NCBI RefSeq assembly: GCF_004010105.1
Contig: NZ_RRYE01000008.1
Span: forward strand, 1-35,348
Length of the DNA stretch: 35,348 bases
Origin: Microbacterium sp. CPCC 204701
GTDB lineage: Bacteria; Actinomycetota; Actinomycetes; Actinomycetales; Microbacteriaceae
Direction of reading: 5' to 3'
The position numbers were made by a program, and so were the translations under genes. The stretch's first letter is position 1; each line of letters starts with the position of its first letter. Shown piece by piece: positions 6,129 through 20,907 of this stretch. The notes beneath the pieces are model-generated. The model did no database searches. It saw nothing but the letters and a program-made list of their open reading frames with translations, and was not told where the DNA came from.

Positions 6129-6180
6129 GGGTGAGAGCCGGGTGAATTTTCGCGTGCGCGTGCTCGACCATCGGTACAAC
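6129..6180 (+). promoter_or_regulatory. Candidate LAL-box promoter P1 (two GGGTGA boxes plus -10)
   Basis: GGGTGA at 6129 and GGGTGAA at 6140 are direct repeats with an 11-bp period. TACAAC, a 4/6 match to the -10 consensus, begins 35 bp after the start of the second box, and no -35 element is present. The same design recurs at 6415, 16234 and 19393, which supports a shared activator-dependent promoter. Transcription would run into a short unit ending at the hairpin 6358-6390. Binding by the regulator at 16718-19249 is inferred. Confidence 0.5.
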
Positions 6181-6265
6181 CATTACTGACCGAGGACCGC
6201 TCGGATCTCAGATCGGCTCCCGCTCCCACGCGCGGGCGCGCCCGTGCTCTCGCGGGAGCGATCCG

Positions 6266-6343
6266 ATGGTGTTGAACGACGCAAGCGCATGGCCAGACCC
6301 CGACGTGGCGGCTTCCCCTGCCGCCACCCACCGAAGTGAGTGA
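6266..6343 (+). CDS. Possible 25-residue peptide in the P1 short transcript
   Basis: An ATG preceded by CGGGAGCG opens a 25-codon frame (MVLNDASAWPD... to SE) that ends just before the hairpin at 6358. It is the only small frame with a clear ribosome site between promoter P1 and that hairpin. The peptide has no recognised family, signal or membrane segment. The unit could equally be a non-coding RNA of about 200 nt. Confidence is low because the frame is so short. Confidence 0.25.
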   Translation: MVLNDASAWPDPDVAASPAATHRSE

Positions 6344-6357
6344 GGGTTCCTTCGGTG

Positions 6358-6390
6358 CGAGCCCCGCCGTCCCCCAGCCGGCGGGGCTCG
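6358..6390 (+). terminator. Strong GC hairpin between promoters P1 and P2
   Basis: CGAGCCCCGCCG (6358-6369) pairs perfectly with CGGCGGGGCTCG (6379-6390) around a 9-nt loop. It resembles the hairpin at 16552-16586 in stem and loop (CCCCGCC, a C-rich loop, GGCGGGG). Because it lies between P1 and P2, it should end the P1 transcript before the giant gene. Confidence 0.6.
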
Positions 6391-6414
6391 ACTCCTCGGG
6401 TGGCTCGCCGAAGC

Positions 6415-6467
6415 GGGTGACCCGGCGGGTGAATTCCGGAGAGCACGGCTCACTCGCGCGATATCTT
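6415..6467 (+). promoter_or_regulatory. Candidate LAL-box promoter P2 for the giant surface-protein gene
   Basis: GGGTGA at 6415 and GGGTGAA at 6427 are direct repeats with a 12-bp period. TATCTT (6462-6467) begins exactly 35 bp after the start of the second box. No -35 hexamer is visible at the normal distance, as expected for an activator-dependent promoter. The predicted start point near 6474 gives a leader of about 85 nt to the gene at 6560. Confidence 0.55.
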
Positions 6468-6559
6468 TCACGCCGGGGGCCTCGATCGATAGCGCGTGCG
6501 CTCGGGGGACTCCATGAGCAGGAGAGCCCTCAACGCTCTCGTGGACACCGGGGGGCGTC

Positions 6560-9500
6560 ATGGCGGGTCATCATCGAGCTTCGACAGGCGAAGGCAGGGG
6601 ACGGGGCGTCCGTCGACTCGGGAAGGCCACACTGGCAAGCGTGGCGGCCCTGCTCATGGTCGTATCGGGGGCGACCGCGGTCGCTCACGCGGCCATCGTC
6701 GCCGAGCACGAGATCACGGCGAACTGGGCCGCCCCGGCACCGACGAGCGTGCTCTACGGCAACCCGGTGATCGCCGAATGGCACATCAACACCAACGACG
6801 CCGAGCAGCCGGAGTCGAACGAGGACGTGACCAACGTCACCGTGACGCTGACCGCGAGCAACGGCAGGTTCGCGAGCCTCCCCTCCGTGTGCAAGACGAC
6901 CGGGGTGACGCCCGCGTCATCGATCTCGGCCAACGGTGTGACTCTCGTGTGCAACGTCGGCACGGTCAAGGCGGGTACGGCAACGGTTCTTCAGACGCCG
7001 ATCCGTGCGACGAGCACGAACGGGCAGCCGCTGTCGGCGTCCGGCTCGGTGGACTCCGACCAGGCCGCGGCGCCGTCGGTCGCCGCCACACAGACGCCTG
7101 TGCCGGTCACCTACAACTACGGCATGGACCTCGTGATCTCGACGCCCTCCAGCAACCCGGCCGAGGGCGGCCAGCGGGCGCGCTACTTCGAGGGTGCCGC
7201 CGAGCGACAGTACATGGTCGTCGACTGGGCCATCGCCGCCAACGTCGGCAGCCGCCCAGGCCCGGCGAACTATTCGTTCGTGCTCAACGTGTCGAGCGCG
7301 ACCGTGGGAGCGAATACGAATCTCATCACCCCCGAGGAGTGCCGGCCGGTCAACGGCGAGGTCGCCGCGGGCATCCCCTTCTCGGCGGCCAACCGGCCGG
7401 ATCGCGCGGCCTTCCCCGGCGGCTGCACCATCACGAAGCTCAACGCCACGCAGTATCGCGTCACGCTGACCAACATCGACTACAGCCTCACCCGTGTTCC
7501 GGTGAAGGACTCCAAGGGACAGAACCTCCCCGCAGGCAGGAACTACATCGCGTCGGGCGCTCTGATCCTGTCGCACCCGTCGCCGGCGACGCTCACTCAG
7601 ACATTCAACTTCAGCGCGAATGCGCCGGCGTGGACGTACCCGGGCACGACGCAGCGCACGAACGACCCCACGGCGAACAACACCGACGCGATCACCCTCT
7701 ATGTGCCCGGCGACTTCAGCAACGCCTGGCACGGAACCCCGGCATCGTCGCGTTCCACCTGGGACGACCAGCTGTTCGTCGCGCCCGGCACCGGCTCCGC
7801 GTGGACGCCCGGCGCAGGCGGCGCCACCCTTCCCCTGTACTCGCAGGCAACCAGCTACGCGTGGAACGACTACCGGGGGCCAAACGCCGGCAACGTCGCG
7901 GGTGTCTGCACCATGAACCAGAGCGCGACGAGCTTTCCCGCGCCGGAGAGCAACAATCTCGTCTACCGCTACATGGACGGCGGCGGGTGGGATCCCGCAC
8001 GAGGCGGCTACCTCCAGATGCCCACCCTTCGCTACTGGTACACCACCGCCAACATCGACACCCACACCTTCACGTGCGGCTCGACCGCCGTCACGTGGGT
8101 GCCCGCGACACCGGCCGGAGGCGTGACAGCGGGTGATCCGCGAACCCCGGGCACCAGCGTCGTGCAGCTGCCGGCGAACGTCTCCGCCGTCAGGGTGACG
8201 TGGAACCCCGCCGTCGACAAGCCGTACGGAGTATTCGTGCGCGGCTTCGGCTATATCAAGGCGAACGCGACGCCGTGGGTCGCAGGCGCGCCGAACAACA
8301 TCCTCGAAGAGGGCTGGACCGTCGGCTCCTACAACCGGCCGAACGCCGTGACGGCGGCGGCCAACACCTGGTACAACAGCAGCAATATCGCCGGCGTGAA
8401 CACCGCCACGCCCTGGAGCCCGTACACCGGCGCGGCCGGCGGCACGAACGGATGGCGCGATGTCTACCGCATCGTCGGCAACACCGGCTCGATCTCGAAG
8501 TCCGCGAGCCCGCAGACCGCAGGTCCCGGCCAACCCGTCACTTACACGGTGCGCGCCGCGACGAACAGCACGACCACGCCGCCGACCAACAGCAACCTGA
8601 CCGTCGTCGACCTGCTGCCCGCGGGGATGCAATACATCGCAGGCTCGGCGCGGATCGACGGCACCGCGGTCACTCCGGCGTCCGCGACCGTCAGCGGTCG
8701 CCGGCAGCTGACCTTCGCGATGACGAACTCGCCCGCGAACACGCAGCGCGTGATCACCTATCAGGCGATGCTTCCGGCGAACTCGTCGGTCGCTCCCGGC
8801 ACGACCCTGACGAACACGGCCGAGGTCCGCGTGCCCGGCGACATCCGCGAGCTCGCGCTGCGCCAGGCCTCGGCATCCGTCGTCGTCCCGAACAACGGCA
8901 CGACGTCGTTCGGCAAGAGCGCGGGCGCGACGTACGTGCCATACGCCGGGGGAAGCTCGTTCTGGCGCATGACCCTGAACTCGCTCGACCCGTCATCGAA
9001 CGCCTATACCGACACGATCGACATCCTCCCGTACACGGGGGACGAGAACGGCACGAACCTCGACGGCGGCTACGAGGTCACGCGCGTCAGCGTGCCGGCG
9101 GGCACGTGGCGGGTCTTCTACACCACTGCCGACCCCGGCACGCTCAGCGACGACCCGCGCACGAAGTCCAACGGCACCAACCCCGGTGCGATCGCCGGCA
9201 ACACCGTCGGCTGGAGGGCGATCACCCTGAGCGGCACGAACGCGGCCATTCCCGCGGACGCGACCGCCATCCGGGTGATCGGCCCCGCGCTCGCGCCGGG
9301 AGCCCAGCAGTCGTTCGACGTCCACTTCACCACGGCCGCGCCGACGAGCACCGAGTGCGCGGCGCCCGCCGCAGGCGACAACAAGCCCGGCCAGGTCATC
9401 GTCAACGCCGCCACGAGCATCGCGGCCCACACCGGCCTGCCGATGAAGTCGTCCGCGACCACCACGATCGCCGACTGCAACCAGATCGAGGTCAAGAAGT

Positions 9501-12500
9501 ACGTTCTCGAGAAGGGCGGCGACCGCACCGACGATGCCGCCTGGCACGACGCCCAGGATGCGAGCGACTTCCCGCAGTATGCGCGCGACGACACGGTGCC
9601 GTACCGCATCAGCGTGACCAACAGGGGCACGGGCACGCTCACGAACGTCTCGGTGACCGACCCGATGTTCCCACAGTGCGCCTACACCGTCGCCTCGCTC
9701 GCGGCCGGCGCGACCGAGTTCCGCGACTGCACCGCCGGCCCCGCCGCGCTCGGCACGACGATCAACGAGGCATTCGTGAATGTCACGCCGCCGGTGGGCG
9801 AACCGCTCACCGGAAGCGACCCGGCGGGAATCGTGGTGCCGCTGCCGCCGACGGTCTCGAAGACCTCGAACCCGGCGTCGGGGACGCCGGTGCTCGCGGG
9901 CGAGAGCATCACCTACACCGTGACGATCACCGAGCCCGAAGACAGTCCGGCACCATTCCTGTCGCCGAGCTTCACGGACGACCTCACCGGCGTGCTCGAC
10001 GACGCCGTCATCGACGAGGACAGCATCACGGTCGCCACGTCCGCCGAGGACGGCGCTCCGGGCACCGCGGTGCTCGACGGCAACGCGCTGCGGTGGTCGG
10101 CCGACCGCATCTTCCCCGGCGAGATCATCACCATCACCTACACCGTCACGGTCAAGGACTACGACGAAGTCGGCGACTTCCGTCTGCGCAACGCGGTCAC
10201 CCCGGGCACCGACATCGAGTGCGGCACCTGCACGACGGAGCACCCGGTTCCCGGTGTCCACTTCGCGAAGTCCGCGACCCCGACGACGGTGACGCCGGGC
10301 GGCACCGTCACCTACACGATCGACGTCCGCAACACCGGCCAGGTGGCGTACGGCGAGAACGGCTTCGCGGCGGCGACGGTGACCGACCCTCTGACGGACG
10401 TGCTGAAGGATGCCGTCTGGGTCGGCTCCTCATCGCCCGGGGTGGTGTTCGACCCCGCCACGGGCGTCACGTGGAGCGGTCCGCTCGCGGTCGGCGCGAC
10501 CACTTCGTTCAGCTTCGATGTGCAGGTGAAGCCCGCCGGCGTCGACGAGGACACGCGCGACGACCGGCTCGAGAACACGATCGTGTCGGAGACTCCCGGA
10601 AGCAACTGCACGGACGACTCGACCGACCCCGACTGCGACGCCGTCGTGCGCGTGCAGTCGTACACCGTGGAGAAGTCGACGGCCGAGGCGCCCGTGGTGC
10701 GCGGTGAGGTCGTGACGTACTCGCTCACCGTGCGCAACACCGGTGAGGTCGCGTACACGGCCGAGGACCCGGCGTCGTTCGACGACGACCTCGCCGACAT
10801 CCTCGATGACGCGGACTTCGTGGCGGGCAGCGCCACTGGCGGCGCCGCCTTCGCAGACGGCCACCTGACATGGGCCGGCCCCCTCGCCGTCGGCCAGATG
10901 CGCACGTTCACCTACTCCGTGGCGGTGAAGCAGACGCCGAACCCTGACAGCATGACGCTGAACAACACGGTCGCCCCGACAGGCACCGGCGGCAGCTGCG
11001 CCGGCGACGGACTGTGCGACACGTCGACGCCGATCGCCCAGTTCCACGTCGCGAAGTCGTCCGACCCGGCCTACGTGAACCCGGGTGGAACCGTGCACTA
11101 CCGCATCGTGGTGACGAACACGGGCGGCGTGGCGTTCACGGATGAGTTCCCGGCATCGTTCCGCGACTCGTTCGCGGGAATCGTCGACGACGGCGAGCTC
11201 GACGCGACGATCGACGACGACGGCCAGATCGTCGACGGCAGCGTGACGTGGACGGCAGGGGAGCTGACCTATCGCGGTTCGGTCCTCGACTGGACCGGGC
11301 CGCTCGAGGTCGACGGCACGGTGACGATCGAATACGACGTGCTCGTCGACAACCCCGATCGCGGCGATCACCTGCTCGCGAACCGCGTGACGACACCGAC
11401 CGGGCTCGCCAACTGCGACACCGCCTCGACCGACCCGGTGTGCGAGACCGAAACGCCGGTGCAGTCCTACGAGGTCGTGAAGGTCGCGAACCGCGACGTC
11501 GTCGAGCAGGGCGACGAGATCACCTACTCGATCACAGTGCGCAATACCGGCAACGTGCCGTATCCGGCCGGCCCGGGCGAGCCGCAGGCGGCGATCTCGG
11601 ACCCGATCGGCGACGTGCTGCAGAACGCGACGTTCGACGGTGTCGTCACCGCATCGGCCGGAACGGCGACGTGGGTCGAGGCATCCCAGACCATCCGCTG
11701 GGTGGGCGATCTGCCGCTCGGTGGTGAGCCGGTCACGATCACCTACACCGTGGTCATCACGGCTGCGACAACCCCTCCCGACCGGCTCATGAACCGGGCC
11801 AGCACCGACAGCCCCGGCGGCAACTGCGATCCTGCGACCGAGTTCTCCCTCGCCGATCCCCGGTGCTGGGTCGAGGTGCCGACCCGTGCTTATCGGGTGG
11901 TGAAGGCCGTGAGCGACACCGTCGTCGAGCCGGGTCAGCAAAACCTGACCTACACGATCGCCGTCACCAACACCGGCTCGGAGGCCTACGAAGGTACGAC
12001 GATCGGCGACGAGAACGCCGCCGAGATCCGTGACGACCTCACCGACACGCTCGGCGACTCGGGCAGTCCGGTGCTCGTGTCGCAGCCGGCCGGCTGGCAG
12101 GTGACGTTCGAGAACGGCGTGCTCGTGGGCGCCGGCCCGCTCGGCGTGGACGAGACGGTGACGTTCGTGTACACCGTCGATGTCGACGACCCGGACGCCG
12201 GCGATCACCGCATGGACAACCGCGTCGAGACTCCTCCCGGCCGCGGCGGCAACTGCACGCCCATGTCGACCGACGGCGACTGCGACGTGACCGTGCTCGT
12301 GCGCGAGTTCACGGTCGAGAAGACCGTCGCCCCGCAGGTCGTCGAGGTGGGCGGATCCGTGGTGTACACCGTGACGGTGCGCAACACCGGCGCGGTGGCC
12401 TACTCCGCCGCCGACCCGGCCGGGTTCCGCGACGACCTCACCGACGTGCTTCGCGACGCCGACTGGGGCGGCGTGCTCCAGGGCAGTGCGGTCTTCGACG

Positions 12501-15500
12501 GGCTCGCGACGCTCACCTGGTCCGGCGAGCTGCCGATCGGCGGCGAGGCCGTCGTGCGCTACACGGTGATCGCGAACGGCGAGACGGATGACGACATCCT
12601 CGTCAACGATGTCGACCCGGTCGGCCCGGGTGGGTCGTGCGTGGACGCAGACAGCTGCACCACCGAGGTGCCGATCCGGTCGTTCGAGTACGACAAGGCG
12701 GTCGACGCGGCCTCGCTCACCGAGGGCGACGACGTCACCTACACAGTGACGGTGCGCAACACCGGCGCGGTGGCGTACACCGACGCCCAGCCCGCCGACA
12801 TCGTCGACGACCTGTCAGGTGTGCTCGACGACTCCGGTGACCTGCGGGCCATCACGATCGATCCCGATCAGGGCGAGGCGACCGTGAACGGAAGCGCACT
12901 GAGGTGGGAGGGGCCGCTGGCCGTCGATCAGACGCTGACCATCCGCTACACGCTCACGGTGGACGACCCCGACACCGGGGACCACCACCTCGTGAACACG
13001 GTCACCAGCTCCACCGGCGAATGCGCCGAGGACGGCACGTGCACCACCGACACCCCGGTGCGCGGCTACCTCGTCGAGAAGTCGTCGGCCCCGGCGATCG
13101 TGACCCCGGGCGACGACGTGGCGTACACCTTGACGGTCACGAACACCGGCGCCGTGGCCTACACGGACGACGACCCCGCTTCGTTCTCCGACGACCTGTC
13201 GGACGTGCTCGACGTCGCGAGCGCGCCGTTCGACCTCACGGTCGAGGGCGACAGCGACGATGCGCCATCGTGGCATGCAGACGAGTCGGAGCTCCGATGG
13301 GCGGGTGAGCTGCCCGTCGGCGGCGTGGTGACCGTCCGCTACACGGTGACGGTCGACGTGCCTGTGGCCGGCGACGCGGACTTCCTGCTCGAGAACGTCG
13401 TGACGCCGACCGGCCCCGGTGGCGAGTGCGGCGTCTGCGACACGGTGACGCCGATTCGGGCATACGACACGGTCAAGACCGCGAGCCATCGGCAGGCCGA
13501 GCCCGGTGACGAGGTGACGTACACCGTGCGAATCGAGAACATCGGCCAGGTGGCGTATAGCGCTCCCACCCAGGCGACGTTCGCCGACGACCTGGCTGGC
13601 GTCCTCGACGATGCAAGCGGCCCGACCGGTCTGACGGGCGGCGCGACGTTCGCGGACGGGATTCTGTCGTGGGCGGGCGACCTGCCGATCGGAGGCGTGG
13701 CCGTCGTGACCTACGCGGTCACCGTGCTCGACCCGCAGCAGACGCCGACGCCCCCGGCGGACGGCATCCTGCGCAACGCGGTCGTGACTCCGCCCGAGGG
13801 CGGGTGCGCCGACTCCACGGCGGCGGACTGCACCACCGAGACGCCCGTGCGTGCGCTGCACTTCGAGAAGACCGTCGACCAGGAGGTCGCTTTCGCCGGC
13901 GACGCGATCGAGTACACGATCACGGTCGAGAACACCGGCGCGGTCGACTTCACCAGCGACGTGCCTGCGAAGTTCGAGGACAGCCTGGCCCGCGTGCTGG
14001 ACGACGTGACGACGGTCACAGCGGACACGCTGAACCTCGATGCCAGCGCAGGCACGGCGACGTTCGTCGCATCGACCAGTCGCATCCACTGGGAGGGTCC
14101 GCTCGCGGCCGGCGCCACGGCGACCATCACGTATCAGGTGACGATCGCGAACCCGAACCGCGGCGATCACGCACTCCAGAACCGGATCGTGACGCCGCCC
14201 GACATCCCGTCCAACTGCGGTCCGGACTCCGAGGACCCGCTGTGCGAGACGACGACCCTCGTGAAGGCACACCACCTCGCGAAGGCGGCCGACCGCACCG
14301 AGTTCTTCCCGGGCGATGTCGTGACGTACGCGATCACGCTCCGCAACACCGGCCAGGTCGCCTACACGGCCGATGAGCCCGTGGTGTGGGACGACCCGCT
14401 CACAGAGGTGCTCGACGACGCCGCATACAACCTCGACGCGGCCGCGACCTCCTCGGTGGACGGCACGGCAGTCAACGCCGTCACTTGGGATGCGGATGCC
14501 GGCGCGCTGCGTTGGAGCGGCAAGCTCGACGTCGGTGAGGTCATCACGTTCACGTACAGCGTGGTCGTGAGCAATCCGACGCCCGACGGCGCGGACAAGA
14601 TCCTGTTCAACAGGGTCACGTCCCCCACGCCTGGCGGCAACTGCTCGCCCACGAGCGAGGACCCCGTCTGCGAGGTCGACCTCGGCGGCCCGTCCGTGCA
14701 CGTGGAGAAGACCTCGACGAAGGAGACGGCGTTCCCCGGTGAGGTCGTCGAGTATGCGATCACGGTGACGAACGACGGCGGCATCGACTGGACCGCCGAC
14801 CGCCCGGCTGAGATCGACGACTCGCTCGTCGACGTCCTCGACGACGCGACCTACAACGGCGACGCGACGCACGGTGCACAGCTCGTTGGCTCGCGCGTGA
14901 AGTGGCAGGGCGCGCTCGCGGTGGGCGAGTCCGTCACGATCGAGTACTCGGTCACGATCAACGCGCCGCGCACCGGCGACGGCATCATCGACAACGTCGT
15001 GACGACCCCGGAAGAAGTGCCCAGCAACTGCGTCGCGATCGCGTCGCAGAACCCCGACGACACGCCGGGCGCAACGTTCGACCCGGCCGCGTCGACCGAC
15101 GAGGCGTGCGCAACCCGCACGCTCGTGCAGTCGTACCAGACTGTCAAGACGTCGGACGCCGGTGACAAGGTCGAGCCGGGTGACACCGTGACCTACACGA
15201 TCACAGTCCGCAACACGGGCCAGGTCGGCTACACCGAGCAGGAGCCGGCGACGTTCGTCGACGACTTCGGCGGGGTGCTCGACGACGCCCGCTACACCGG
15301 CGACGCGACGGATGGGGCCGCCTACGACGCGCCGCGCCTGTCGTGGGCCGGAGCCCTCGATATCGGGGAGGTGACCACGGTGTCGTACAGCTTCGTGGTC
15401 GCCGAACAGGGCGGGGACAACGTCATGCGCAACGTGCTGTTCAGCCACGGCGAGATCGGCGGCAACTGCGTCGACCCGAGTGTTGCGGACTGCCAGGTCG

Positions 15501-15640
15501 ACACCCTGGTGGAGCGTCCGCTCGCTGTGACCGGCGGAGGCATCGCGCTCTGGCTGGTCGGGGTGCTGGTCGGCCTGTTGGCCGCCGGCGGGCTGCTGCT
15601 GTGGCTGAGCCTGCGCCGACGTTCTCGGCGGGCGTCGTGA
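6560..15640 (+). CDS. Giant sortase-anchored surface protein with tandem Ig-like (DUF11/DUF7927-like) repeats
   Basis: This 3026-residue protein is predicted to be exported and fixed to the cell wall as a long rod, probably an adhesin or stalk. Residues 1-45 form a signal peptide with a long basic start, ending AVAHA. Residues about 46-640 are a unique region, the best candidate for a ligand-binding tip. A DUF11-like domain (about 644-770), another unique domain (about 782-970) and a second DUF11-like domain (about 977-1095) follow. About 14 tandem repeats then fill 1098-2985, each with a YTVTVRNTG-like strand and a DDL..VLDDA motif. The C-terminus has LAVTG (2988-2992), a hydrophobic helix and RRRSRRAS, which fits the LAXTG signal of class E sortases. 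The domain name is from memory. The start has only GGGGGG as ribosome site. The next gene overlaps its stop by 4 bp. Confidence 0.9.
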   Translation: MAGHHRASTGEGRGRGVRRLGKATLASVAALLMVVSGATAVAHAAIVAEHEITANWAAPAPTSVLYGNPVIAEWHINTNDAEQPESNEDVTNVTVTLTASNGRFASLPSVCKTTGVTPASSISANGVTLVCNVGTVKAGTATVLQTPIRATSTNGQPLSASGSVDSDQAAAPSVAATQTPVPVTYNYGMDLVISTPSSNPAEGGQRARYFEGAAERQYMVVDWAIAANVGSRPGPANYSFVLNVSSATVGANTNLITPEECRPVNGEVAAGIPFSAANRPDRAAFPGGCTITKLNATQYRVTLTNIDYSLTRVPVKDSKGQNLPAGRNYIASGALILSHPSPATLTQTFNFSANAPAWTYPGTTQRTNDPTANNTDAITLYVPGDFSNAWHGTPASSRSTWDDQLFVAPGTGSAWTPGAGGATLPLYSQATSYAWNDYRGPNAGNVAGVCTMNQSATSFPAPESNNLVYRYMDGGGWDPARGGYLQMPTLRYWYTTANIDTHTFTCGSTAVTWVPATPAGGVTAGDPRTPGTSVVQLPANVSAVRVTWNPAVDKPYGVFVRGFGYIKANATPWVAGAPNNILEEGWTVGSYNRPNAVTAAANTWYNSSNIAGVNTATPWSPYTGAAGGTNGWRDVYRIVGNTGSISKSASPQTAGPGQPVTYTVRAATNSTTTPPTNSNLTVVDLLPAGMQYIAGSARIDGTAVTPASATVSGRRQLTFAMTNSPANTQRVITYQAMLPANSSVAPGTTLTNTAEVRVPGDIRELALRQASASVVVPNNGTTSFGKSAGATYVPYAGGSSFWRMTLNSLDPSSNAYTDTIDILPYTGDENGTNLDGGYEVTRVSVPAGTWRVFYTTADPGTLSDDPRTKSNGTNPGAIAGNTVGWRAITLSGTNAAIPADATAIRVIGPALAPGAQQSFDVHFTTAAPTSTECAAPAAGDNKPGQVIVNAATSIAAHTGLPMKSSATTTIADCNQIEVKKYVLEKGGDRTDDAAWHDAQDASDFPQYARDDTVPYRISVTNRGTGTLTNVSVTDPMFPQCAYTVASLAAGATEFRDCTAGPAALGTTINEAFVNVTPPVGEPLTGSDPAGIVVPLPPTVSKTSNPASGTPVLAGESITYTVTITEPEDSPAPFLSPSFTDDLTGVLDDAVIDEDSITVATSAEDGAPGTAVLDGNALRWSADRIFPGEIITITYTVTVKDYDEVGDFRLRNAVTPGTDIECGTCTTEHPVPGVHFAKSATPTTVTPGGTVTYTIDVRNTGQVAYGENGFAAATVTDPLTDVLKDAVWVGSSSPGVVFDPATGVTWSGPLAVGATTSFSFDVQVKPAGVDEDTRDDRLENTIVSETPGSNCTDDSTDPDCDAVVRVQSYTVEKSTAEAPVVRGEVVTYSLTVRNTGEVAYTAEDPASFDDDLADILDDADFVAGSATGGAAFADGHLTWAGPLAVGQMRTFTYSVAVKQTPNPDSMTLNNTVAPTGTGGSCAGDGLCDTSTPIAQFHVAKSSDPAYVNPGGTVHYRIVVTNTGGVAFTDEFPASFRDSFAGIVDDGELDATIDDDGQIVDGSVTWTAGELTYRGSVLDWTGPLEVDGTVTIEYDVLVDNPDRGDHLLANRVTTPTGLANCDTASTDPVCETETPVQSYEVVKVANRDVVEQGDEITYSITVRNTGNVPYPAGPGEPQAAISDPIGDVLQNATFDGVVTASAGTATWVEASQTIRWVGDLPLGGEPVTITYTVVITAATTPPDRLMNRASTDSPGGNCDPATEFSLADPRCWVEVPTRAYRVVKAVSDTVVEPGQQNLTYTIAVTNTGSEAYEGTTIGDENAAEIRDDLTDTLGDSGSPVLVSQPAGWQVTFENGVLVGAGPLGVDETVTFVYTVDVDDPDAGDHRMDNRVETPPGRGGNCTPMSTDGDCDVTVLVREFTVEKTVAPQVVEVGGSVVYTVTVRNTGAVAYSAADPAGFRDDLTDVLRDADWGGVLQGSAVFDGLATLTWSGELPIGGEAVVRYTVIANGETDDDILVNDVDPVGPGGSCVDADSCTTEVPIRSFEYDKAVDAASLTEGDDVTYTVTVRNTGAVAYTDAQPADIVDDLSGVLDDSGDLRAITIDPDQGEATVNGSALRWEGPLAVDQTLTIRYTLTVDDPDTGDHHLVNTVTSSTGECAEDGTCTTDTPVRGYLVEKSSAPAIVTPGDDVAYTLTVTNTGAVAYTDDDPASFSDDLSDVLDVASAPFDLTVEGDSDDAPSWHADESELRWAGELPVGGVVTVRYTVTVDVPVAGDADFLLENVVTPTGPGGECGVCDTVTPIRAYDTVKTASHRQAEPGDEVTYTVRIENIGQVAYSAPTQATFADDLAGVLDDASGPTGLTGGATFADGILSWAGDLPIGGVAVVTYAVTVLDPQQTPTPPADGILRNAVVTPPEGGCADSTAADCTTETPVRALHFEKTVDQEVAFAGDAIEYTITVENTGAVDFTSDVPAKFEDSLARVLDDVTTVTADTLNLDASAGTATFVASTSRIHWEGPLAAGATATITYQVTIANPNRGDHALQNRIVTPPDIPSNCGPDSEDPLCETTTLVKAHHLAKAADRTEFFPGDVVTYAITLRNTGQVAYTADEPVVWDDPLTEVLDDAAYNLDAAATSSVDGTAVNAVTWDADAGALRWSGKLDVGEVITFTYSVVVSNPTPDGADKILFNRVTSPTPGGNCSPTSEDPVCEVDLGGPSVHVEKTSTKETAFPGEVVEYAITVTNDGGIDWTADRPAEIDDSLVDVLDDATYNGDATHGAQLVGSRVKWQGALAVGESVTIEYSVTINAPRTGDGIIDNVVTTPEEVPSNCVAIASQNPDDTPGATFDPAASTDEACATRTLVQSYQTVKTSDAGDKVEPGDTVTYTITVRNTGQVGYTEQEPATFVDDFGGVLDDARYTGDATDGAAYDAPRLSWAGALDIGEVTTVSYSFVVAEQGGDNVMRNVLFSHGEIGGNCVDPSVADCQVDTLVERPLAVTGGGIALWLVGVLVGLLAAGGLLLWLSLRRRSRRAS
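9853..15515 (+). repeat. Array of about 14 tandem Ig-like repeats inside the giant gene
   Basis: Repeat units start near 9853, 10252, 10657, 11038, 11460, 11884, 12304, 12677, 13064, 13459, 13850, 14267, 14690 and 15127, giving a period of about 370-440 bp (about 125-145 residues). Each unit begins with a lysine-containing strand such as YTVEKS, carries a (V/I)TYT(V/I)TVRNTG strand and a DDLxxVLDDA turn, and ends with two cysteines a few residues apart. The units are diverged in sequence, so they are old duplications rather than a recent slippage array. Confidence 0.9.
15521..15637 (+). other. Cell-wall sorting signal (LAVTG, membrane helix, basic tail)
   Basis: The encoded C-terminus reads LAVTG, then about 22 hydrophobic residues, then an arginine-rich tail. 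LAXTG rather than LPXTG is the motif known for class E sortases of high-GC actinobacteria. No sortase gene lies in this window, so the enzyme must be encoded elsewhere. Confidence 0.8.
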
Positions 15641-16239
15641 GGCGACTCCTCATCCTGCTGCTCGCGCTGCCGGCGCTGCTTCTCGCAGTGCCGGCCGCGC
15701 CGGCCGCTGCTGCCGGCGCGGCTGACGACGTGGCGGCGGTGACGGTCTCGGTTTCGGACGGGCGCGACGACGCCGCGCCCGGTGACCACCTCGACTACAC
15801 CGTGGAGGTGGACAACGCCGGTGCCGAGGCGTTCACAGGTTCGGTGACGCTGCGAGTCCCCGACTTCGCCGAGGTCGAGGCATCCGGAGCCACCATCGAG
15901 GGAGGCGTCGCGACCTGGAGCGTCGAGATCCCTGCGGGCGGGTCAGCGCAGTGGACGGCGACCGTGATCATCGGAGACGAGTCCGGCGAGGCGTACCAAG
16001 TCGTCGTCCTGGCGGAGGTCGTCGACGGAGGAGGCGCAGTCGTCGTGCGCGATGCCGATGCCGATGCCATTCCCGGCTCCATCGCGCCGCCCGCGGTCGC
16101 GGGCATGGGCGGCGAACCGCAAGGCCTTCCCGAATGGGTCATGCCGGCAGCGATCCTGGCGGCAGTGGTCCTGGCGGGATCGTCACTCGCGCTGTTCGGT
16201 GCCGTGCTCGCGCGTCGCGGACGCCCCCGGAGGGGGTGA
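15637..16239 (+). CDS. Small membrane-anchored Ig-like protein coupled to the giant surface protein
   Basis: The 200-residue product has a signal peptide (VRRLLILLLALPALLLAVP...), one Ig-like/DUF11-type domain at about 30-115 (DHLDYTVEVDNAG, then a sandwich of beta strands), a linker, and a C-terminal membrane helix at about 168-190 followed by ARRGRPRRG. No LPXTG or LAXTG motif precedes the helix, so it should stay in the membrane with its domain outside. The GTG start overlaps the stop of the giant gene in the sequence GTGA, which indicates translational coupling and a shared function, for example as a membrane partner or assembly factor. That role is inferred. Its own TGA stop lies inside the first GGGTGAA box of promoter P3. 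Confidence 0.85.
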   Translation: MRRLLILLLALPALLLAVPAAPAAAAGAADDVAAVTVSVSDGRDDAAPGDHLDYTVEVDNAGAEAFTGSVTLRVPDFAEVEASGATIEGGVATWSVEIPAGGSAQWTATVIIGDESGEAYQVVVLAEVVDGGGAVVVRDADADAIPGSIAPPAVAGMGGEPQGLPEWVMPAAILAAVVLAGSSLALFGAVLARRGRPRRG

Positions 16240-16285
16240 AGGAGCGGGTGAAATTCCTGAGACGCGGTCCGAATCCCGATAGGAA
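16234..16285 (+). promoter_or_regulatory. Candidate LAL-box promoter P3
   Basis: GGGTGAA at 16234-16240 and 16246-16252 are identical boxes 12 bp apart. The weak -10 TAGGAA (16280-16285) begins 34 bp after the start of the second box. The stop codon of the preceding gene is part of the first box. The promoter would drive a unit of about 300 nt ending at the hairpin 16552-16586, just upstream of the regulator gene. Confidence 0.5.
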
Positions 16286-16345
16286 CGATCTCAGGGTCAC
16301 GCTGCGCCTCGGCGGGCGGCCCCGTGACATTCCAGGGGGGAATTG

Positions 16346-16534
16346 TTGAGTCATCCTGTCGTGCCGAAAATCTCGGCAGATGCACCATCCGCGAGACCGC
16401 TCGCAGACCGTCGCGCTCGACTGTTCGCGGTCACACAGTCGGGCCTCGGGCGGGTCGCGGGCCGTCTCTCCGACGACGCCCTCATGATCCACCGCCGGCG
16501 CTTCCCCAGAGCGCCAGGTGGGCCGGTGAGCTGA
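16346..16534 (+). CDS. Possible small protein (62 aa) in the P3 transcript
   Basis: A TTG start 5 nt after GGGGGG opens a 62-codon frame; an adjacent in-frame TTG lies at 16343. The second half (from about residue 27, FAVTQSGLGRVAG) has the strong third-position G/C bias of real genes here, while the first half has less. It has no signal peptide, membrane helix or recognised domain and is rich in arginine and proline at the end (HRRRFPRAP). It lies entirely between promoter P3 and a strong hairpin. It could be a small DNA- or protein-binding product, or the transcript may act as RNA. Confidence 0.35.
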   Translation: MSHPVVPKISADAPSARPLADRRARLFAVTQSGLGRVAGRLSDDALMIHRRRFPRAPGGPVS

Positions 16535-16551
16535 TTTCTTCGGCCCGGCGC

Positions 16552-16586
16552 GCTGTGCCCCGCCTTCCCCAGGGGCGGGGCACAGC
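16552..16586 (+). terminator. Strong GC hairpin between the P3 unit and the regulator gene
   Basis: GCTGTGCCCCGCC (16552-16564) pairs perfectly with GGCGGGGCACAGC (16574-16586) around a 9-nt loop. It should end the P3 transcript before the LuxR-type regulator. Confidence 0.7.
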
Positions 16587-16620
16587 ATCATCATCGTCCG
16601 GCCATCAGCTGGCGGGGAAC

Positions 16621-16659
16621 TAGAGTGCAAGCGGGGGTCCGTGCGGGGGTGCGCGGACC
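16621..16659 (+). promoter_or_regulatory. Candidate promoter and leader hairpin of the LAL regulator
   Basis: TAGAGT (16621-16626) is a good -10 box about 90 nt upstream of the regulator start; no clear -35 is seen. The leader then carries GCGGGGGT twice with a 12-bp period (16631 and 16643). The second copy lies in the loop of a hairpin formed by GGTCCG (16636-16641) and CGGACC (16654-16659). The 12-bp spacing equals that of the GGGTGAA boxes, so an autoregulatory role is conceivable. Confidence 0.4.
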
Positions 16660-16717
16660 TGGCCTGGGGCCGACGTGACGGACAGATTCTGGGGATGGAC
16701 GAAGGAATCGAATCGAA

Positions 16718-19249
16718 GTGTGGTCATTGGAGCGGCTGGAAACCGGCGCCCCGCGCGTCCCAGGTGACGTCATCTCGCGGCCCAGGCTGCTCGCATATCT
16801 GGAACTCGGCACCCCGCTGACCCTGGTGCGAGGAGCCTGCGGCGCCGGAAAGACGGTGGTCCTGCGCGAATGGGTGCAGCGCACCGAGGAGCGTGCTCTG
16901 TGGGTCACCGCCGACCAGGGCATTGCCGACAGCGTCGGCCTCGCGCGCCTGATCCTGCGGCGGCTGCCGCGGGAGTGGGATGCCGCGGACCCGGGTGATG
17001 CGGCCGGTGTATGGCGGGTCGTGCGCGATCGCCTCGCCGATCTCGATGAGCCGGTGACCGTCTTCCTCGACGACGCGGCGACCCTCGAAGCGGAAGCTCT
17101 CGTGGACCTGTGCGATACCGTCGCGGCGGTGCCCGCCGTGCGCGTCATCGCCGCAGCGAACCGGCGCACCGTCCTCGACAGCGACGGCGTCGGAATGATC
17201 GTCGACAGGTCGGTGGTCGGACCCGCCGAGCTCATGTTCGACGACGAGGAGATCCGTCGTGTCCTTGGCATCGGCGAAGATCTGGCACGGAAGGTGCGTG
17301 CCGCGACGAGCGGATTCCCCGCCGTCATCCATGCGATGGCCCGTCGTGGAATCCCGGCCGACGGCGATTCGCTGGTGCAGGCGGCGGTCGAGGCGGTGGA
17401 GGAGTACATGCGCCTCCGGGTCGCGCGGTCCGGCTACGACCCGGCGCTCATCTCCGCTCTGGTGCGGATCAGTCTCGCCGAGGCCGTCGACGACGCCCTC
17501 GCTCGTGACCTCAGCGGCGACCCGCGCGCCGTCCGCTACCTGGACGATGCCGAAAGCTACGGCTTCGGCTCGTGGTCGACCGGCGGGAGCGGACGCACGT
17601 TCCGGTTCGCGCCGTTCGCCCGCGTCCTTCTGCGACGCGAGCTCGAGCGCCGGCACCCGGGCGACGTCCCGGCGCTGCGACGCATGGTCGTCGCGGGCGC
17701 GCAGCGCGCCGGCAAGCCTGCCGAGGCACTGCGGGCGGCGGTCGACGGTGGCGATCTGGAGCTGGCGCGGCGCGTGGTCACGTCGTCGTGGTATCAGCTG
17801 CTGAATCACGGCGCCACCGTGCGAGAGGTCCTGGGATCGATTCCGCTGTCGCAGCTGAAAGACGAACCGATCCTCGTGATGCTCCTTGCGGTCTGCTACA
17901 ACGCCGTGCGCGTGCGGCGACTGCGCGGGCTCCAGCTCTTCCGCATCGCCGTGTCGGCGGCCAACTCTCAGCGCGCCGACATCGATGACTTGGACCGCCT
18001 GTTCGTCTGGGTCGCCGAGAGTGTCGCCCTGCGCGTGCTCGGTCTGCACGAGCGCGCCGCGAACGTCGCGGTTCGCGCGCTCAGACTGTTGGCCGACACC
18101 CCGGAGGACGAGGAGGTGTACGCCGCGCAGCTGCCGCTCCTGTCTGCGCAGCTGGGCATCTCGCTGTACTACGGCGGCAGTCAGCGGCAGGCGATCGAGT
18201 GCTTCGCGTACGGCGCCGCGGTGGCGGCGGTGGATGACTCCGAGCACGGGATCTCGAACCTGTCGATGCTCGCCGGCATCCATGCCCTCAACGGCGACAT
18301 GCCCGAGGCTCGACACTACGTCCAGCTTATTCGCGAGGGGGAGTGGCGGGGCCGGCACCTCGACGGATATCAGGGCACCTTCTACCGCGTGGCCGAGGCC
18401 CTCCTCGCGTTGGAGCAGGGCGATGTCGACAAGGCTTCGGAGCACGTCGCGGTCTTCGAACCGCATCGCGCGACGAGCGAGCATTGGACAGTCATGGCCG
18501 CCGTCGAGGCGCTCGTGTCGCTGCGCCGCGGGCGGGCGGCCTTGGGTGCCGCGCAGCTGGACTCACTCGTGGAGCTGCGAGGACGCGAGGGCCACACGGC
18601 GGCCGCACGTCGATCTCTGAGCGGCACGCGGACCCTGCTGCTGCTCGCGCAGGGAAAGAGTCAGGCTGCGAAGGCCGTCCTCCTCAACGACGGCCCGGAA
18701 GAGCGGTTCGAAACGGTCGTGGAGCGCGCTCGCATCGCGCTGATCGACGGCAGACCGCGCGACACGCTCCGCATCCTGAGTCAGGCGCGCGTCAAGCCGA
18801 GCAGCGTGCGACAGAGCGCCGGGGCGGCGTCGCTGCGCACGGCAGCGCTGGTTCGCACGGGCGGGGTCGCCGCCGCGCGCCACGATGCGCAGAGTCTCGC
18901 CGCCCTGCTGTGCGACCGGGGCCTGCGCCTGCCGCTCGCTCTGCTCCCCCCGGCCGACACCCGAGTCGTGCAGGAACTCCTGCGGGAGACGGATTCGTGC
19001 ACGATCGACCCTGTCGAATCCGCCCTGCCCGATTCGATCAGCGCTCCTGCTCTCACCGAGCGCGAGCACATCGTGCTGCGGGCGCTCGGCTCGGGCCGGC
19101 CGCTGACCGCCATCGCTACCGACCTCGGGGTCTCGCCGAACACCATCAAGACGCAGGTGAAGAGTGTCTACCGCAAGCTCGGCGTCGCTGGCCGCGAGGA
19201 GGCGGTCGCCGCCGCAGACGCCCGGCACCTGCTGTCGGACTTCGGCTGA
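16718..19249 (+). CDS. LuxR-family LAL-type (MalT-like) ATP-binding transcriptional regulator
   Basis: The 843-residue protein has the layout of large ATP-binding LuxR regulators (LAL), signal-transducing activators related to MalT. The Walker A motif GACGAGKT is at 39-46 and a Walker B-like VFLDD at 115-119. A winged-helix and long helical-repeat sensor region follows (about 250-760), then a C-terminal LuxR/GerE helix-turn-helix at 779-843 (LTEREHIVLRALGSG, then SPNTIKTQVKSVYRKLGV). The GTG at 16718 is preceded by GAAGGA about 11 nt upstream. No alternative in-frame start fits the N-terminal domain better. MalT-type proteins bind short direct repeats and activate promoters with poor -35 elements. 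The GGGTGAA repeats around this gene fit that pattern, so it is the likely activator of the giant surface-protein locus. The ligand is unknown. Confidence 0.92.
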   Translation: MWSLERLETGAPRVPGDVISRPRLLAYLELGTPLTLVRGACGAGKTVVLREWVQRTEERALWVTADQGIADSVGLARLILRRLPREWDAADPGDAAGVWRVVRDRLADLDEPVTVFLDDAATLEAEALVDLCDTVAAVPAVRVIAAANRRTVLDSDGVGMIVDRSVVGPAELMFDDEEIRRVLGIGEDLARKVRAATSGFPAVIHAMARRGIPADGDSLVQAAVEAVEEYMRLRVARSGYDPALISALVRISLAEAVDDALARDLSGDPRAVRYLDDAESYGFGSWSTGGSGRTFRFAPFARVLLRRELERRHPGDVPALRRMVVAGAQRAGKPAEALRAAVDGGDLELARRVVTSSWYQLLNHGATVREVLGSIPLSQLKDEPILVMLLAVCYNAVRVRRLRGLQLFRIAVSAANSQRADIDDLDRLFVWVAESVALRVLGLHERAANVAVRALRLLADTPEDEEVYAAQLPLLSAQLGISLYYGGSQRQAIECFAYGAAVAAVDDSEHGISNLSMLAGIHALNGDMPEARHYVQLIREGEWRGRHLDGYQGTFYRVAEALLALEQGDVDKASEHVAVFEPHRATSEHWTVMAAVEALVSLRRGRAALGAAQLDSLVELRGREGHTAAARRSLSGTRTLLLLAQGKSQAAKAVLLNDGPEERFETVVERARIALIDGRPRDTLRILSQARVKPSSVRQSAGAASLRTAALVRTGGVAAARHDAQSLAALLCDRGLRLPLALLPPADTRVVQELLRETDSCTIDPVESALPDSISAPALTEREHIVLRALGSGRPLTAIATDLGVSPNTIKTQVKSVYRKLGVAGREEAVAAADARHLLSDFG

Positions 19250-19392
19250 GCGCAGGCTGCGGCTGCCGGCGCGAGCGCTCCTGGAGCCGGCGGCGTTCGC
19301 GGCGCTGCAGACGCTGCGTTCGTCGCCGCGCTCGCGTTCACCGCGATGCTGTCGCGCGCCGAACCCGTCCGTCAGGATGCACCCGGCTCCTG

Positions 19393-19457
19393 GGGTGAAG
19401 GAAGGGGTGAAGTGAGGGGTGAAGTTTCGCAGGTCTCGCAGACACAAGAGCTAGAAA
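19393..19457 (+). promoter_or_regulatory. Candidate LAL-box promoter P4 (three GGGTGAA boxes plus -10)
   Basis: GGGTGAA occurs three times at 19393, 19405 and 19417 with an exact 12-bp period. TAGAAA (19452-19457), 4/6 to consensus, begins exactly 35 bp after the start of the third box. This is the cleanest of the four sites and lies about 145 bp after the regulator stop. The unit it would drive ends at the hairpin 19896-19930. Confidence 0.6.
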
Positions 19458-19459
19458 GG

Positions 19460-19793
19460 AGACGGCGTCGCGACCGTGGCGCCGATGCGCGGGGAACCGC
19501 GCGGGAGGCGTCATCCGGCTTCGCGGGCTTCGGCATGTGCGGTCGTGGTGCTCCACGACGGTCACTGGGTCGAGAGGAACCCAGCGGCAGGTCCACGGAC
19601 ATCTGACGCAGCCTGCGGTTCGCCCGTGCAGGCCCGACCCGAGAACGCGAGATCGTCCTCGCCAGGTCGCGGAGCCCCCGAAGCCCCGCGGTACCCGACT
19701 GGCTGGCGCGTGCGCGTGCACGCCTCGAATCGAGCCTCCGGTCGATGGCTCGTCACGGGACGGGTCATGCTCCACCCGATCCAAAGGCCCCGC
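19460..19793 (+). ncRNA. Stretch between P4 and a short ORF; no convincing gene
   Basis: This is the leader of the predicted P4 transcript (about 470 nt in all). A frame is open from a GTG at 19476 to 19892, but its first 100 codons are rich in Arg, Pro, Ala and Ser, show no family, and have a poor codon bias, so I do not call it. The stretch could be an untranslated leader or a regulatory RNA; the RNA call is inferred only from a promoter-like start and a strong hairpin end. Confidence 0.25.
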
Positions 19794-19892
19794 ATGTCCA
19801 GCGCTTCCGTTCTTCGCCGCATCGAGGACGACGGCAGAGCCCTCCGCCGACGCGGCATGGCCCTCGCGGTCGCCGCCGGCAGCGCGTACTGA
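19794..19892 (+). CDS. Possible 32-residue peptide at the end of the P4 transcript
   Basis: The last 32 codons before the hairpin, from an ATG at 19794, have the strong third-position G/C bias of real genes here. The peptide has an amphipathic basic part (LRRIEDDGRALRRRG) and a short hydrophobic end (MALAVAAGSAY). The ribosome site is weak (AAAGG). The terminator begins 3 bp after the stop, a compact arrangement that suggests a real small gene. No family is recognised. Confidence 0.35.
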   Translation: MSSASVLRRIEDDGRALRRRGMALAVAAGSAY

Positions 19893-19895
19893 GCC

Positions 19896-19930
19896 GGTGG
19901 TGAGGCGGCTCTGGGGGCCGCCTCACCACC
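19896..19930 (+). terminator. Strong hairpin ending the P4 transcript
   Basis: GGTGGTGAGGCGGC (19896-19909) pairs perfectly over 14 bp with GCCGCCTCACCACC (19917-19930) around a 7-nt loop; TTC follows. It isolates the surface-protein locus from the GH16-like gene that begins at 19979. Confidence 0.8.
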
Positions 19931-19978: not shown

Positions 19979-20758
19979 ATGGGCCCGCCCGAGAAGCTCC
20001 CCCCATCGCCGGACCGGGCTCCGGAGCTGGACGAGGACTTCTCGGGCGGGCTGACCCACCGCTGGTGGGTGGCGGCCTATCTGCCGCACTGGACCACGCC
20101 CGACCGCGCCGCGGCCCGATACGGGCACGTGGCCGGGGGCCTCGAGCTGCGGATCGACGAAGACCAGCCGGACTGGCGGCCCGAGGACGCTCCGCTGCGG
20201 GTCTCGAACCTGCAGACGGGCGCCTACGCCGGGCCGCTCGGGTCGGCCCGAGGTACCCATCGTCACCGCGACGACGGCCTGGTCGTCCGCACCGAGACCC
20301 CGCTTCAGCTTTGCTTCGCGCCGTCGAGCGGCCGCGCCGAGATCACCGTGTCGGCCACCCGCGACGCGGGTGCCATGCTCGCTGCGTGGCTCGTCGGCAC
20401 CGAGCACCTGTCCGAGGCGGACTCCGGCGAGATCTGCGTGTTCGAGATCGACGCCGACGCGATCGGTGCGACAACCCGCGCGCGTACGGGCGTGAAGGCC
20501 CACCACGATCGCCGGCTGACCACGGACATGGCCGAGGTGACGATCCCGCTCGACGCTTCGCGGCCGCACACGTGGACCGTCATCTGGGGTGGGGGTGAGA
20601 CCGTCATCGGGTGCGACGGTGTGGTCGTTCGGCGCATCCCGCAGGCGCCGGACTATCCGCTGTTCCTCATGATCGACCTGTTCGAGGTCGGCCCGCCGAG
20701 CGGAACCTACCCGAAGTCCGCCCTCGTCCATCGCGTCCGGGGATGGATCGCGTCCTGA
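19979..20758 (+). CDS. Glycoside hydrolase family 16-like protein
   Basis: The 259-residue protein resembles an actinobacterial GH16-like (concanavalin-type jelly roll) family: DEDFSGGLTHRWW near the start, RVSNLQTG at about 74-81, and PLFLMIDLFEVG near the end. The catalytic-type strand reads SGEICVFEID, so the two glutamates of the GH16 signature E-x-D-x-x-E are at 151 and 156, but the middle aspartate is a cysteine (153). From memory this E-I-C pattern is shared by homologues, so it is a family trait rather than a lesion, and the substrate is uncertain. There is no signal peptide, so it is probably cytoplasmic. No ribosome site precedes the ATG, and the start may be leaderless. Confidence 0.7.
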   Translation: MGPPEKLPPSPDRAPELDEDFSGGLTHRWWVAAYLPHWTTPDRAAARYGHVAGGLELRIDEDQPDWRPEDAPLRVSNLQTGAYAGPLGSARGTHRHRDDGLVVRTETPLQLCFAPSSGRAEITVSATRDAGAMLAAWLVGTEHLSEADSGEICVFEIDADAIGATTRARTGVKAHHDRRLTTDMAEVTIPLDASRPHTWTVIWGGGETVIGCDGVVVRRIPQAPDYPLFLMIDLFEVGPPSGTYPKSALVHRVRGWIAS

Positions 20759-20894
20759 TCCGAGACGCGGCCGCGCGACCGGCTCACGCGCCCGGGGATG
20801 CCTCGGCACGCAGTCGTCACCCCGCATGTGGTGCTCCACTTGATTCCTCCGTCCGCAGCCATTGTCGTGCGAGCTCGGCGGTTCGACGGATGTC

Positions 20895-20900
20895 TATGCT
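20895..20900 (+). promoter_or_regulatory. Candidate -10 box, leaderless start of the serine hydrolase gene
   Basis: TATGCT ends 7 bp before the ATG at 20908, the spacing expected when transcription begins at the start codon. No ribosome site is present, which favours this start over ATG 20890 and 20896. Confidence 0.45.
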
Positions 20901-20907
20901 CGCATGC

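Follow-up and report, generated by a model that had tools for sequence, protein, structure and literature searches.

GGGTGAA direct repeats in the genus Microbacterium are, in our judgment, quite likely operators of an adjacent LAL (MalT-like) LuxR-family regulator, which would control a genus-wide regulon of giant surface proteins and whose lineage would set the repeat period. Comparison across the genus ties the motif both to genes of giant proteins and to homologues of the LAL regulator, shows that its period follows the regulator clade, and reveals two giant gene deletions in the strain from which the motif was first described. The window, i.e., the whole stretch of DNA analyzed, covers positions 1–35,348 (35,348 nucleotides, forward strand) of contig NZ_RRYE01000008.1 of Microbacterium sp. 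CPCC 204701 (GCF_004010105.1).

Repeat sites and genes in the window

The following features of the window are referred to below.

6129..6146, + strand: site 1, candidate operator; GGGTGA pair at 6129/6140, period 11; TACAAC at 6175-6180
6266..6343, + strand: 25-codon ORF after site 1 and, by eye, a GC-rich hairpin behind it at ~6365-6390
6415..6433, + strand: site 2, candidate operator; GGGTGA pair at 6415/6427, period 12; TATCTT at 6462-6467; giant A promoter
6560..15640, + strand: giant A, a 3026-aa secreted surface protein with DUF7927/DUF11/DUF7507 repeats and a putative C-terminal LAVTG sorting signal
15601..16239 (start approximate), + strand: small secreted protein that, by eye, has a single repeat-like domain and is anchored in the membrane at its C-terminus
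16234..16252, + strand: site 3, candidate operator; GGGTGAA pair at 16234/16246, period 12; TAGGAA at 16280-16285; promoter of deleted giant B
16346..16534, + strand: giant B remnant; TTG start, ~30 N-terminal codons and the last ~17 codons (...IHRRRFPRAPGGPVS)
16718..19249, + strand: LAL (MalT-like) LuxR-family regulator, 843 aa, with P-loop and C-terminal GerE HTH
19393..19423, + strand: site 4, candidate operator; three GGGTGAA boxes at 19393/19405/19417, period 12; TAGAAA at 19452-19457; promoter of deleted giant C
19794..19892, + strand: giant C remnant; first ~27 codons (MSSASVLRRIEDDGRALRRRGMALAVA...), then a stop; hairpin at ~19896-19930 (by eye)

The boxes of all four direct-repeat sites were found where a preceding sequence-only reading had placed them and with the periods that it had given, and the hexamers TACAAC, TATCTT, TAGGAA and TAGAAA start 35, 35, 34 and 35 bp, respectively, after the start of the last box, as it had claimed. 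Its view that four such sites are hard to explain by chance also held, with five matches of GGGTGAN{4,7}GGGTGA in the window (four sites, one of them a triple) vs 0.02 expected and none of 100 shuffled windows reaching five. By eye, a −35 element was not evident at the four sites.

LAL regulators are proteins of about 700–1000 aa with an N-terminal P-loop NTPase and a C-terminal GerE/LuxR HTH. With 843 aa, the window protein lies within this size range, matches PF00196 (GerE) at its C-terminus with 41.9 bits (cut-off 23.5), and carries the P-loop GACGAGKT near its N-terminus. The AAA_22 model scored 21.7 bits, below its cut-off of 27, in this protein and 29.9 bits, above the cut-off, in an 82% orthologue (L047). 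The window LAL is not MalT proper, as it reached 102.4 bits (E 1.8e-29) with the NCBIfam MalT equivalog NF003420, whose cut-off is 537; the MalT structure 8bob was matched with an E value of 6.8e-8. Most of the compared regulators have similar HTH recognition helices (NT[VIL]K[ST][QH]...YRKL).

The four sites had been described as surrounding a giant gene and the LAL gene. Site 2 is the candidate promoter of giant A, and site 1 leads into the 25-codon ORF. Sites 3 and 4 (16234 and 19393), judged from alignments and as the 641-contig assembly reads, are promoters left behind by giants that this strain has lost and a relative still has. Between the same flanks as the giant B remnant, this relative (L047) has an open gene of 2006 codons, and site 3 aligned to the giant B promoters of L047, L049 and L048 with 77%, 74% and 76%, respectively. 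Positions 19325-19878 gave an 84% alignment with L047, where a long secreted gene comes next and runs past the end of the stretch; in L005, a matching triple box is followed by a 1380-aa giant. Site 1, the sole 11-bp pair of the window, has no giant directly behind it. No convincing relative of this site or of the 25-codon ORF was found among the comparison loci, and the ORF is possibly, at a guess, the remnant of a third deletion. Giant A itself scored 19.8 bits in one search and 25.9 in another with the LAVTG model NF058582, both below the cut-off of 27, and in the relative L134 a 12-bp site lies between the upstream gene and a 3001-aa giant homologous to giant A. The small secreted protein had no NCBIfam match.

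Association of the motif with giant genes and LAL loci

In the strain's own assembly, GGGTGAN{5,6}GGGTGA has 10 matches vs one for the reversed pattern. Five of the 10 lie in the window, and three of the other five are at the upstream end of giant LAVTG-type frames on contigs C24, C446 and C636, for which the NF058582 scores were 42.0 (C24, minus strand) and 44.4 (C636), above the cut-off of 27, and 22.8 (C446), below it. Among the nine LAVTG matches of this genome, five lack an exact pair, three of these with frames >1200 aa. Further LAVTG giants of the genome lie on C24 (plus strand), C357 and C224. The genus-wide search that had been suggested as a check against chance came out in favor of the motif, with 84 matches in 66 of 198 genomes vs three for the reversed pattern, at least 18 of the 84 lying inside one conserved coding sequence. 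The candidate operator is genus-wide and not peculiar to the window locus, and many giants are without an exact pair.

The link to giants was quantified in 21 loci (window included) that had been chosen for their LAL regulator and not for the motif. An exact 11- or 12-bp pair lies ≤600 nt upstream of 15 of the 18 giants vs 8 of the 232 other genes; of these eight, three encode LuxR-type regulators and two come after the deletion remnants in the window. None of 263 genes had an upstream pair in 18 loci taken for the coding match. A pair occurs within ~12 kb of the regulator in 46 of 51 LAL loci and its period follows the regulator clade. The motif is thus retained next to homologues of the regulator, and this second check, like that against chance, supports the earlier proposal of the LAL protein as candidate activator. 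No nearby pair was found in the distant LAL loci G079, G141 and G236, in G001, or in G023, whose contig spans only 5.2 kb. The ~1100-aa gene convergent with the LAL gene in L051-L068 had been considered as PutA; this was rejected, as its translation is part of a giant repeat protein ended by the stretch end, and the loci were therefore withdrawn as a negative control.

When loci were instead selected by the motif, a gene of ≥700 aa began within 600 nt downstream of only 23 of 52 intergenic sites for the genus and of 8 of 20 for the family. The bare motif therefore has other uses, probably including PHO boxes. At the family level, matches were present in 93 of 299 genomes; 85 first-per-genome matches lay outside the genus and lacked the GTCGC spacer, and of the 40 loci chosen from these, 20 were obtained; in seven of them, a site has a ≥700-aa gene no more than 600 nt away. 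At the order level, 69 of 248 genomes had matches, all counted unsorted by context.

Repeat period, promoter geometry and regulator clade

The repeat period varies with the LAL clade and with the absence of the NTPase part. In clade A, to which the window belongs, all eight pairs near the regulator have period 12 (9/10 under a clean 12-kb rule, which adds the 11-bp site 1 and the 12-bp site 2 of the window), as do all 16 pairs of the distant full-length LALs of clade C (17/17 when the same rule adds one 12-bp G035 pair) and the single pair of G222. Sister clade B, whose loci are near copies of each other, has period 13 in 18 of 19 pairs, the remaining pair being inside a gene. The short regulators have period 11 in 14 of 16 pairs; both others belong to G264, a locus with an additional full-length LAL, and were counted for both its regulators. 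Throughout this tally, overlapping pairs in triples were counted twice, the rows for G035, G245, G232 and G092 were taken from the sequence stretches of these loci, and the own-genome rows come from a search without period 13, another search counting one more own-genome pair. Period and clade agree in 45 of 46 loci, with clade labels and expected periods picked after the data were seen, and site 1 of the window (11 bp) is a further exception. The N6-N7 pattern, intended as a spacing control, revealed the 13-bp operators, with 18 matches in 18 of 198 genomes, eight of them ~5 kb from a clade B regulator.

In the other clades, pair positions with respect to the regulator vary widely, and descent from a single promoter therefore does not explain all of the agreement between period and clade. 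MalT-type regulators may read box spacing as a code specific to their lineage, an interpretation to which we assign roughly even chances. As regulators diverged or lost the NTPase, the period would have changed from 12 to 13 and 11 and the giant promoters of the regulon would have changed in step. Giant genes could thus be gained, lost or moved as cassettes, each bringing its own promoter matched to the regulator.

The −10 geometry was tallied at 46 sites, either located in the window or preceding a gene of ≥700 aa. TA follows the start of the last box by 35 bp at 10 sites, by 34 at three and by 36 at two, with zero to four sites at any other listed offset. The constant geometry proposed earlier is thus firm in the window's clade but a mere tendency elsewhere, and is present in a minority of these giant-linked sites. 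Here and in the last-box counts below, "giant-linked" denotes sites of the window and sites preceding any gene predicted to encode ≥700 aa, a definition that also takes in a few sites before regulator genes; gene distances are upper estimates, as the home-made gene finder tends to start genes late.

These features bear on the question of who reads the boxes and to what effect. It is unlikely that the LAL protein binds them as a repressor or autoregulator and not as an activator of giants. Some pairs do lie before, or divergent from, a regulator gene (L071, L076, L082, L131, L174 and L180), but the fixed distance between last box and TA hexamer in the window's clade, with no evident −35, resembles an activated promoter. 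Reading of the boxes by another DNA-binding protein of these loci, such as a sigma factor or a small NarL-type regulator to which the LAL gene is linked indirectly, appears improbable: LuxR-type proteins of ~216 aa are present on stretches L047, L049 and L134, but GerE proteins <400 aa occur on only 10 stretches, whereas the common DNA-binding gene among the GerE-type proteins compared is the LAL homologue, whose clade and NTPase loss the period tracks.

A PHO-box identity of the repeats, with the phosphate response regulator PhoP as their reader, is very improbable. In its favor, GTTCACCC is complementary to GGGTGAAC, sites of PhoP consist of directly repeated 7-bp units with an 11-bp period, and the core matches the complement of the directly repeated Streptomyces PHO unit GTTCACC with its 11-bp unit (PMC4415409). 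Moreover, some 11-bp GGGTGAAC pairs in the family precede phosphate permease-like genes (L221, L222 and L232; by eye). However, PHO boxes combine 11-bp units with GGGTGAAC, whereas giant-linked sites mostly show 12 or 13 bp with GGGTGAA[AT]T; in the window, sites 2–4 have period 12 and site 1 alone has 11. An 11-bp tandem dimer predicts neither 12 nor 13, the periods of giant-linked sites in most clades, and would leave the association with LAL clades unexplained. The last box is GGGTGAAC in one of 41 giant-linked 12-bp sites vs 10 of 23 other 11-bp sites, and on these counts the PHO-box reading of giant-linked sites was rejected. Chance or codon bias of G+C-rich DNA has virtually no probability, since the window, genus (84 vs 3 reversed), own-genome, giant-gene and clade-period counts all speak against it, and the conserved coding sequence that yields GGGTGAAGTC[GAC]CGGGTGAA in 18 of the genus loci (presumably the aconitase gene) is recognizable by its GTC[GAC]C spacer and was set apart from the other sites.

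Predicted mechanism and comparison with known systems

We thus favor the LAL protein as an activator of giant genes, and the following mechanism would account for the data. With ATP and some inducer, the regulator would oligomerize in the fashion of MalT, and its C-terminal HTH domains would bind two or three GGGTGAA boxes head-to-tail, spaced by 11, 12 or 13 bp according to regulator lineage. If transcription starts 6–8 nt past the hexamer, the last box would be at about −47 to −41, just upstream of the absent −35, and RNA polymerase would be recruited there. Targets would be a subset of the giant secreted repeat-protein genes with an LAxTG signal, beside the regulator or elsewhere in the genome; in this strain, as the assembly reads, two giants adjoining the regulator have been deleted while their promoters remain. 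The starts expected in the window are at about 6474, 16292 and 19464. Binding by the LAL protein, its dependence on ATP and inducer, activation over repression and the transcription starts are predictions of this model.

Giant sortase-type repeat proteins recur across Microbacterium, and no account of their regulation was found among the literature matches listed. Known operators are, to our knowledge, rare among LAL regulators. With an operator that can be read, part of the genes controlled by dozens of LAL proteins in Microbacterium would be predictable from sequence, and the natural 11/12/13-bp series would offer direct tests of how MalT-type oligomers space their HTH domains.

MalT is activated by maltotriose and ATP, the activator of cspB is RamA, and in SARP-LAL regulators the SARP domain is responsible for DNA binding. 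RamA is a small regulator whose 280-position NCBIfam model is matched by the window LAL over the HTH only, and the operator and target family in the RamA/cspB system are unlike those found here. The S-layer gene cspB of Corynebacterium glutamicum is nevertheless a parallel, as it is activated by a LuxR-type regulator (a title cited in PMC12337289); here, too, an actinobacterial gene for a major surface protein is predicted to be under LuxR-type control. Streptomyces SARP-LAL regulators of the PimR type bind heptameric direct repeats (PMC5930380); they carry a SARP domain, which is absent from the Pfam matches of the window LAL. The operator reported for a MalT-like regulator of Actinoplanes is the inverted repeat TCATCC-5-GGATGA, in contrast to the direct repeats with a lineage-specific period of 11, 12 or 13 observed here. 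MalT and the window LAL are both LuxR-family proteins with an N-terminal P-loop and a C-terminal HTH. MalT operators, known from E. coli and Klebsiella, contain GGA(T/G)GA repeats near −35 (PMC7567727), and both systems use a short G-rich core in direct repeat, GGGTGA being one base from the T form of the MalT core. They differ in the core itself, in the distance of the last box from the start (~47 bp before the expected start here vs ~35 reported for MalT) and in their targets, which are giant surface proteins here and maltose genes for MalT. The closest known system is MalT with its GGA(T/G)GA direct repeats, and what is new here is the regulon and the lineage-set spacing.

Direct GGGTGA pairs in the window

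GGGTGA occurs 41 times in the window against 20.6 expected, and the exceptional part of this excess is the close direct pairs, of which there are five matches (four sites, one being a triple) versus 0.02 expected. Both the box coordinates proposed in the sequence-only reading and its TA hexamer 34–35 bp away were reproduced at all four sites. Judged by the regulator, Microbacterium timonense and M. salsuginis are the closest named relatives, and the genus was therefore taken as Microbacterium. “Giant” denotes a gene for a very large secreted repeat protein, and LAL the MalT-like LuxR-family regulator.

Upstream of the motif region: dnaK-grpE-dnaJ
6129 (+): site 1, preceding a 25-codon ORF and a hairpin
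6415 (+): site 2
6560–15640 (+): giant A, behind site 2; 3026 aa, DUF7927, DUF11 and DUF7507 repeats, LAVTG-type sorting signal at the end
16234 (+): site 3
16346–16534: putative remnant of giant B; start codon, ~30 codons, then the last ~17 codons kept
16718–19249 (+): LAL regulator, 843 aa; GerE HTH and P-loop, matching MalT in the P-loop region, middle and HTH
19393 (+): site 4, the triple
19794–19892: putative remnant of giant C; first codons only, the rest of the long secreted gene missing from the window

A further upstream gene near dnaK-grpE-dnaJ is, by its position, presumably hspR. A beta-lactamase-family protein (20611–21927) and a luciferase-like monooxygenase (22040–22963) are encoded downstream, with no visible tie to the operator finding.

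In L047, a locus of a relative, a 2006-codon giant aligned with the window at both ends: its promoter and start with positions 16207–16370, and its end, together with the start of the regulator, with positions 16477–16800. The 84% match of positions 19325–19878 to L047 extends into the opening codons of a second long secreted gene; at the position corresponding to giant C, M. timonense carries a giant of 1380 aa. Based on these alignments, sites 3 and 4 are, as the assembly reads, the predicted surviving promoters of deleted giants. The assembly comprises 641 contigs (3.62 Mb), and a collapse or error in it could also account for the remnants at 16346–16534 and 19794–19892. Site 1 had no convincing relative among the loci compared.

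Association of the pairs with giant genes

For a test without motif bias, 21 loci outside clade B (the sister clade of the window's regulator and its close orthologues, clade A) were chosen by their regulator: the window, the M. timonense locus and 19 others. An exact pair with a box-to-box period of 11 or 12 bp was located ≤600 nt upstream of 15 of the 18 giants, several of which are mutually orthologous and thus not independent, and of 8 of 232 other genes. Two of these eight are behind the window's deletion remnants, and three encode LuxR-type regulators. In 18 loci fetched for a coding hit, none of 263 genes had such an upstream pair. The counts for loci L050–L070 (0/9 long proteins and 1/287 others) are not informative, as most of these stretches do not extend to the convergent giant's promoter.

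The window's own genome contains ten exact pairs of period 11 or 12, those outside the window being on contigs C24, C446, C636, C20 and C614. The pairs on C24, C636 and C446 are ≤300 nt from the upstream ends of giant open frames of 1405, 1996 and 2608 aa, respectively, the first two recognized by the LAVTG model and the third scoring below its cut-off. Such a pair was absent at five other LAVTG matches in this genome, three of them with frames >1200 aa. On this reading, the candidate regulon would comprise a subset of giants on which the regulator acts in trans. The pairs at C20:3857 and C614:254 had no recognized target. In another genome, an LAVTG-like match (G028:C6:49130; 21.6 bits, below the cut-off) belongs to an open frame of 10964 aa.

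Repeat period and regulator clade

A LAL homologue (E 1e-60 or better) was found in 49 of 295 genus genomes; genomes with a homologue were searched for periods 11–13, and pairs near the regulator were tabulated.

Period of pairs near the regulator, by regulator group
Clade A (orthologues of ≥68%): 12 bp, 8/8
G222 regulator: 12 bp, 1/1
Clade B (44–51%): 13 bp, 18/19; the remaining one inside a gene
Distant full-length regulators (30–34%): 12 bp, 16/16
Short regulators without the NTPase part: 11 bp, 14/16; both exceptions in G264, which also encodes a full-length LAL

A nearby pair was present at 46 of 51 LAL loci, and 45 of these 46 had the clade's own period (maximum of 29 in 20000 label shuffles of period by clade); the table is without three pairs near regulators, including the window's site 1, an exception to its clade's period. 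Tabulated pairs far from any LAL numbered 136, 43 and 35 for periods 12, 11 and 13, respectively. Seventeen of the 18 clade B pairs with 13-bp period are 4.5–5.5 kb past the regulator on the opposite strand, at the expected start of a convergent giant, and probably represent one inherited promoter and a single event in counting. In the other clades, pairs occur at many distances on both sides of the regulator.

In the regulator tree, several long branches of which are uncertain, the short 11-bp regulators of L078, L079, L080, L086 and L161 group together next to clades A and B, with the short 12-bp regulator of L071 as neighbour. Period labels were clustered on the tree (0/500 shuffles as low), near copies adding to the clustering. 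L139, L169 and L174 (near 9968) encode a separate clade of 520–539-aa LuxR proteins, with NTMKTHARGLYQRLG in the HTH, beside 11-bp pairs that have no giant gene behind them. Genome G001 has a LAL without an adjacent giant on the stretch examined; far from the regulator it carries a pair of 13-bp period like those of the sister clade (C5:132992), and its giant has perhaps been relocated.

Motif distribution and likeness to MalT

Of 198 genus genomes, 66 contained the pattern GGGTGAAN{4,5}GGGTGAA, with 84 matches in total versus 3 for the reversed pattern; at least 18 of the 84 are inside one conserved coding sequence. The stretch GGGTGAAGTC[GAC]CGGGTGAA, which this coding sequence carries in 18 loci (e.g. 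L120 and L121), inflates naive motif counts. A survey of 70 genus loci fetched for the motif, using a looser GGGTGA pair, gave 79 distinct sites, 27 within predicted genes and 52 intergenic. Among the latter, 23 (in 18 loci) were ≤600 nt from a gene of ≥700 aa; the long gene had an LxxT[GS] end in 19 of these cases, and a LuxR-type protein >400 aa was encoded on the same stretch in 18. The other 29 intergenic sites have different neighbours; some are probably PHO boxes (PhoP sites with 11-bp units), and most are without explanation. Across the family (20 loci), 8 of 20 intergenic sites were within 600 nt of a gene ≥700 aa. Before phosphate-permease-like genes (identified by eye), L221, L222 and L232 (near 9951) carry 11-bp GGGTGAAC pairs, which are probably genuine PHO boxes of this family.

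Giant-linked 12-bp sites follow GGGTGAA-N5-GGGTGAA[AT]T, and among the 41 last boxes base 7 is A in 37, base 8 is A in 24 and base 9 is T in 28; 41 of the 295 genus genomes contain the pattern GGGTGANNNNNNGGGTGAAWT. Most of the LAL regulators compared have similar HTH recognition helices, which fits a box common to these regulators. The motif observation holds, and the comparative evidence supports LAL as the putative reader of the boxes.

Among the matches listed from the literature searched, with subscription papers mostly outside it, there was no account of this operator or of LAL control of giants. The window's box is one base away from the MalT core in its T form, as given in PMC7567727. 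As a putative LAL operator, the element is new in its regulon and spacing and familiar in kind.
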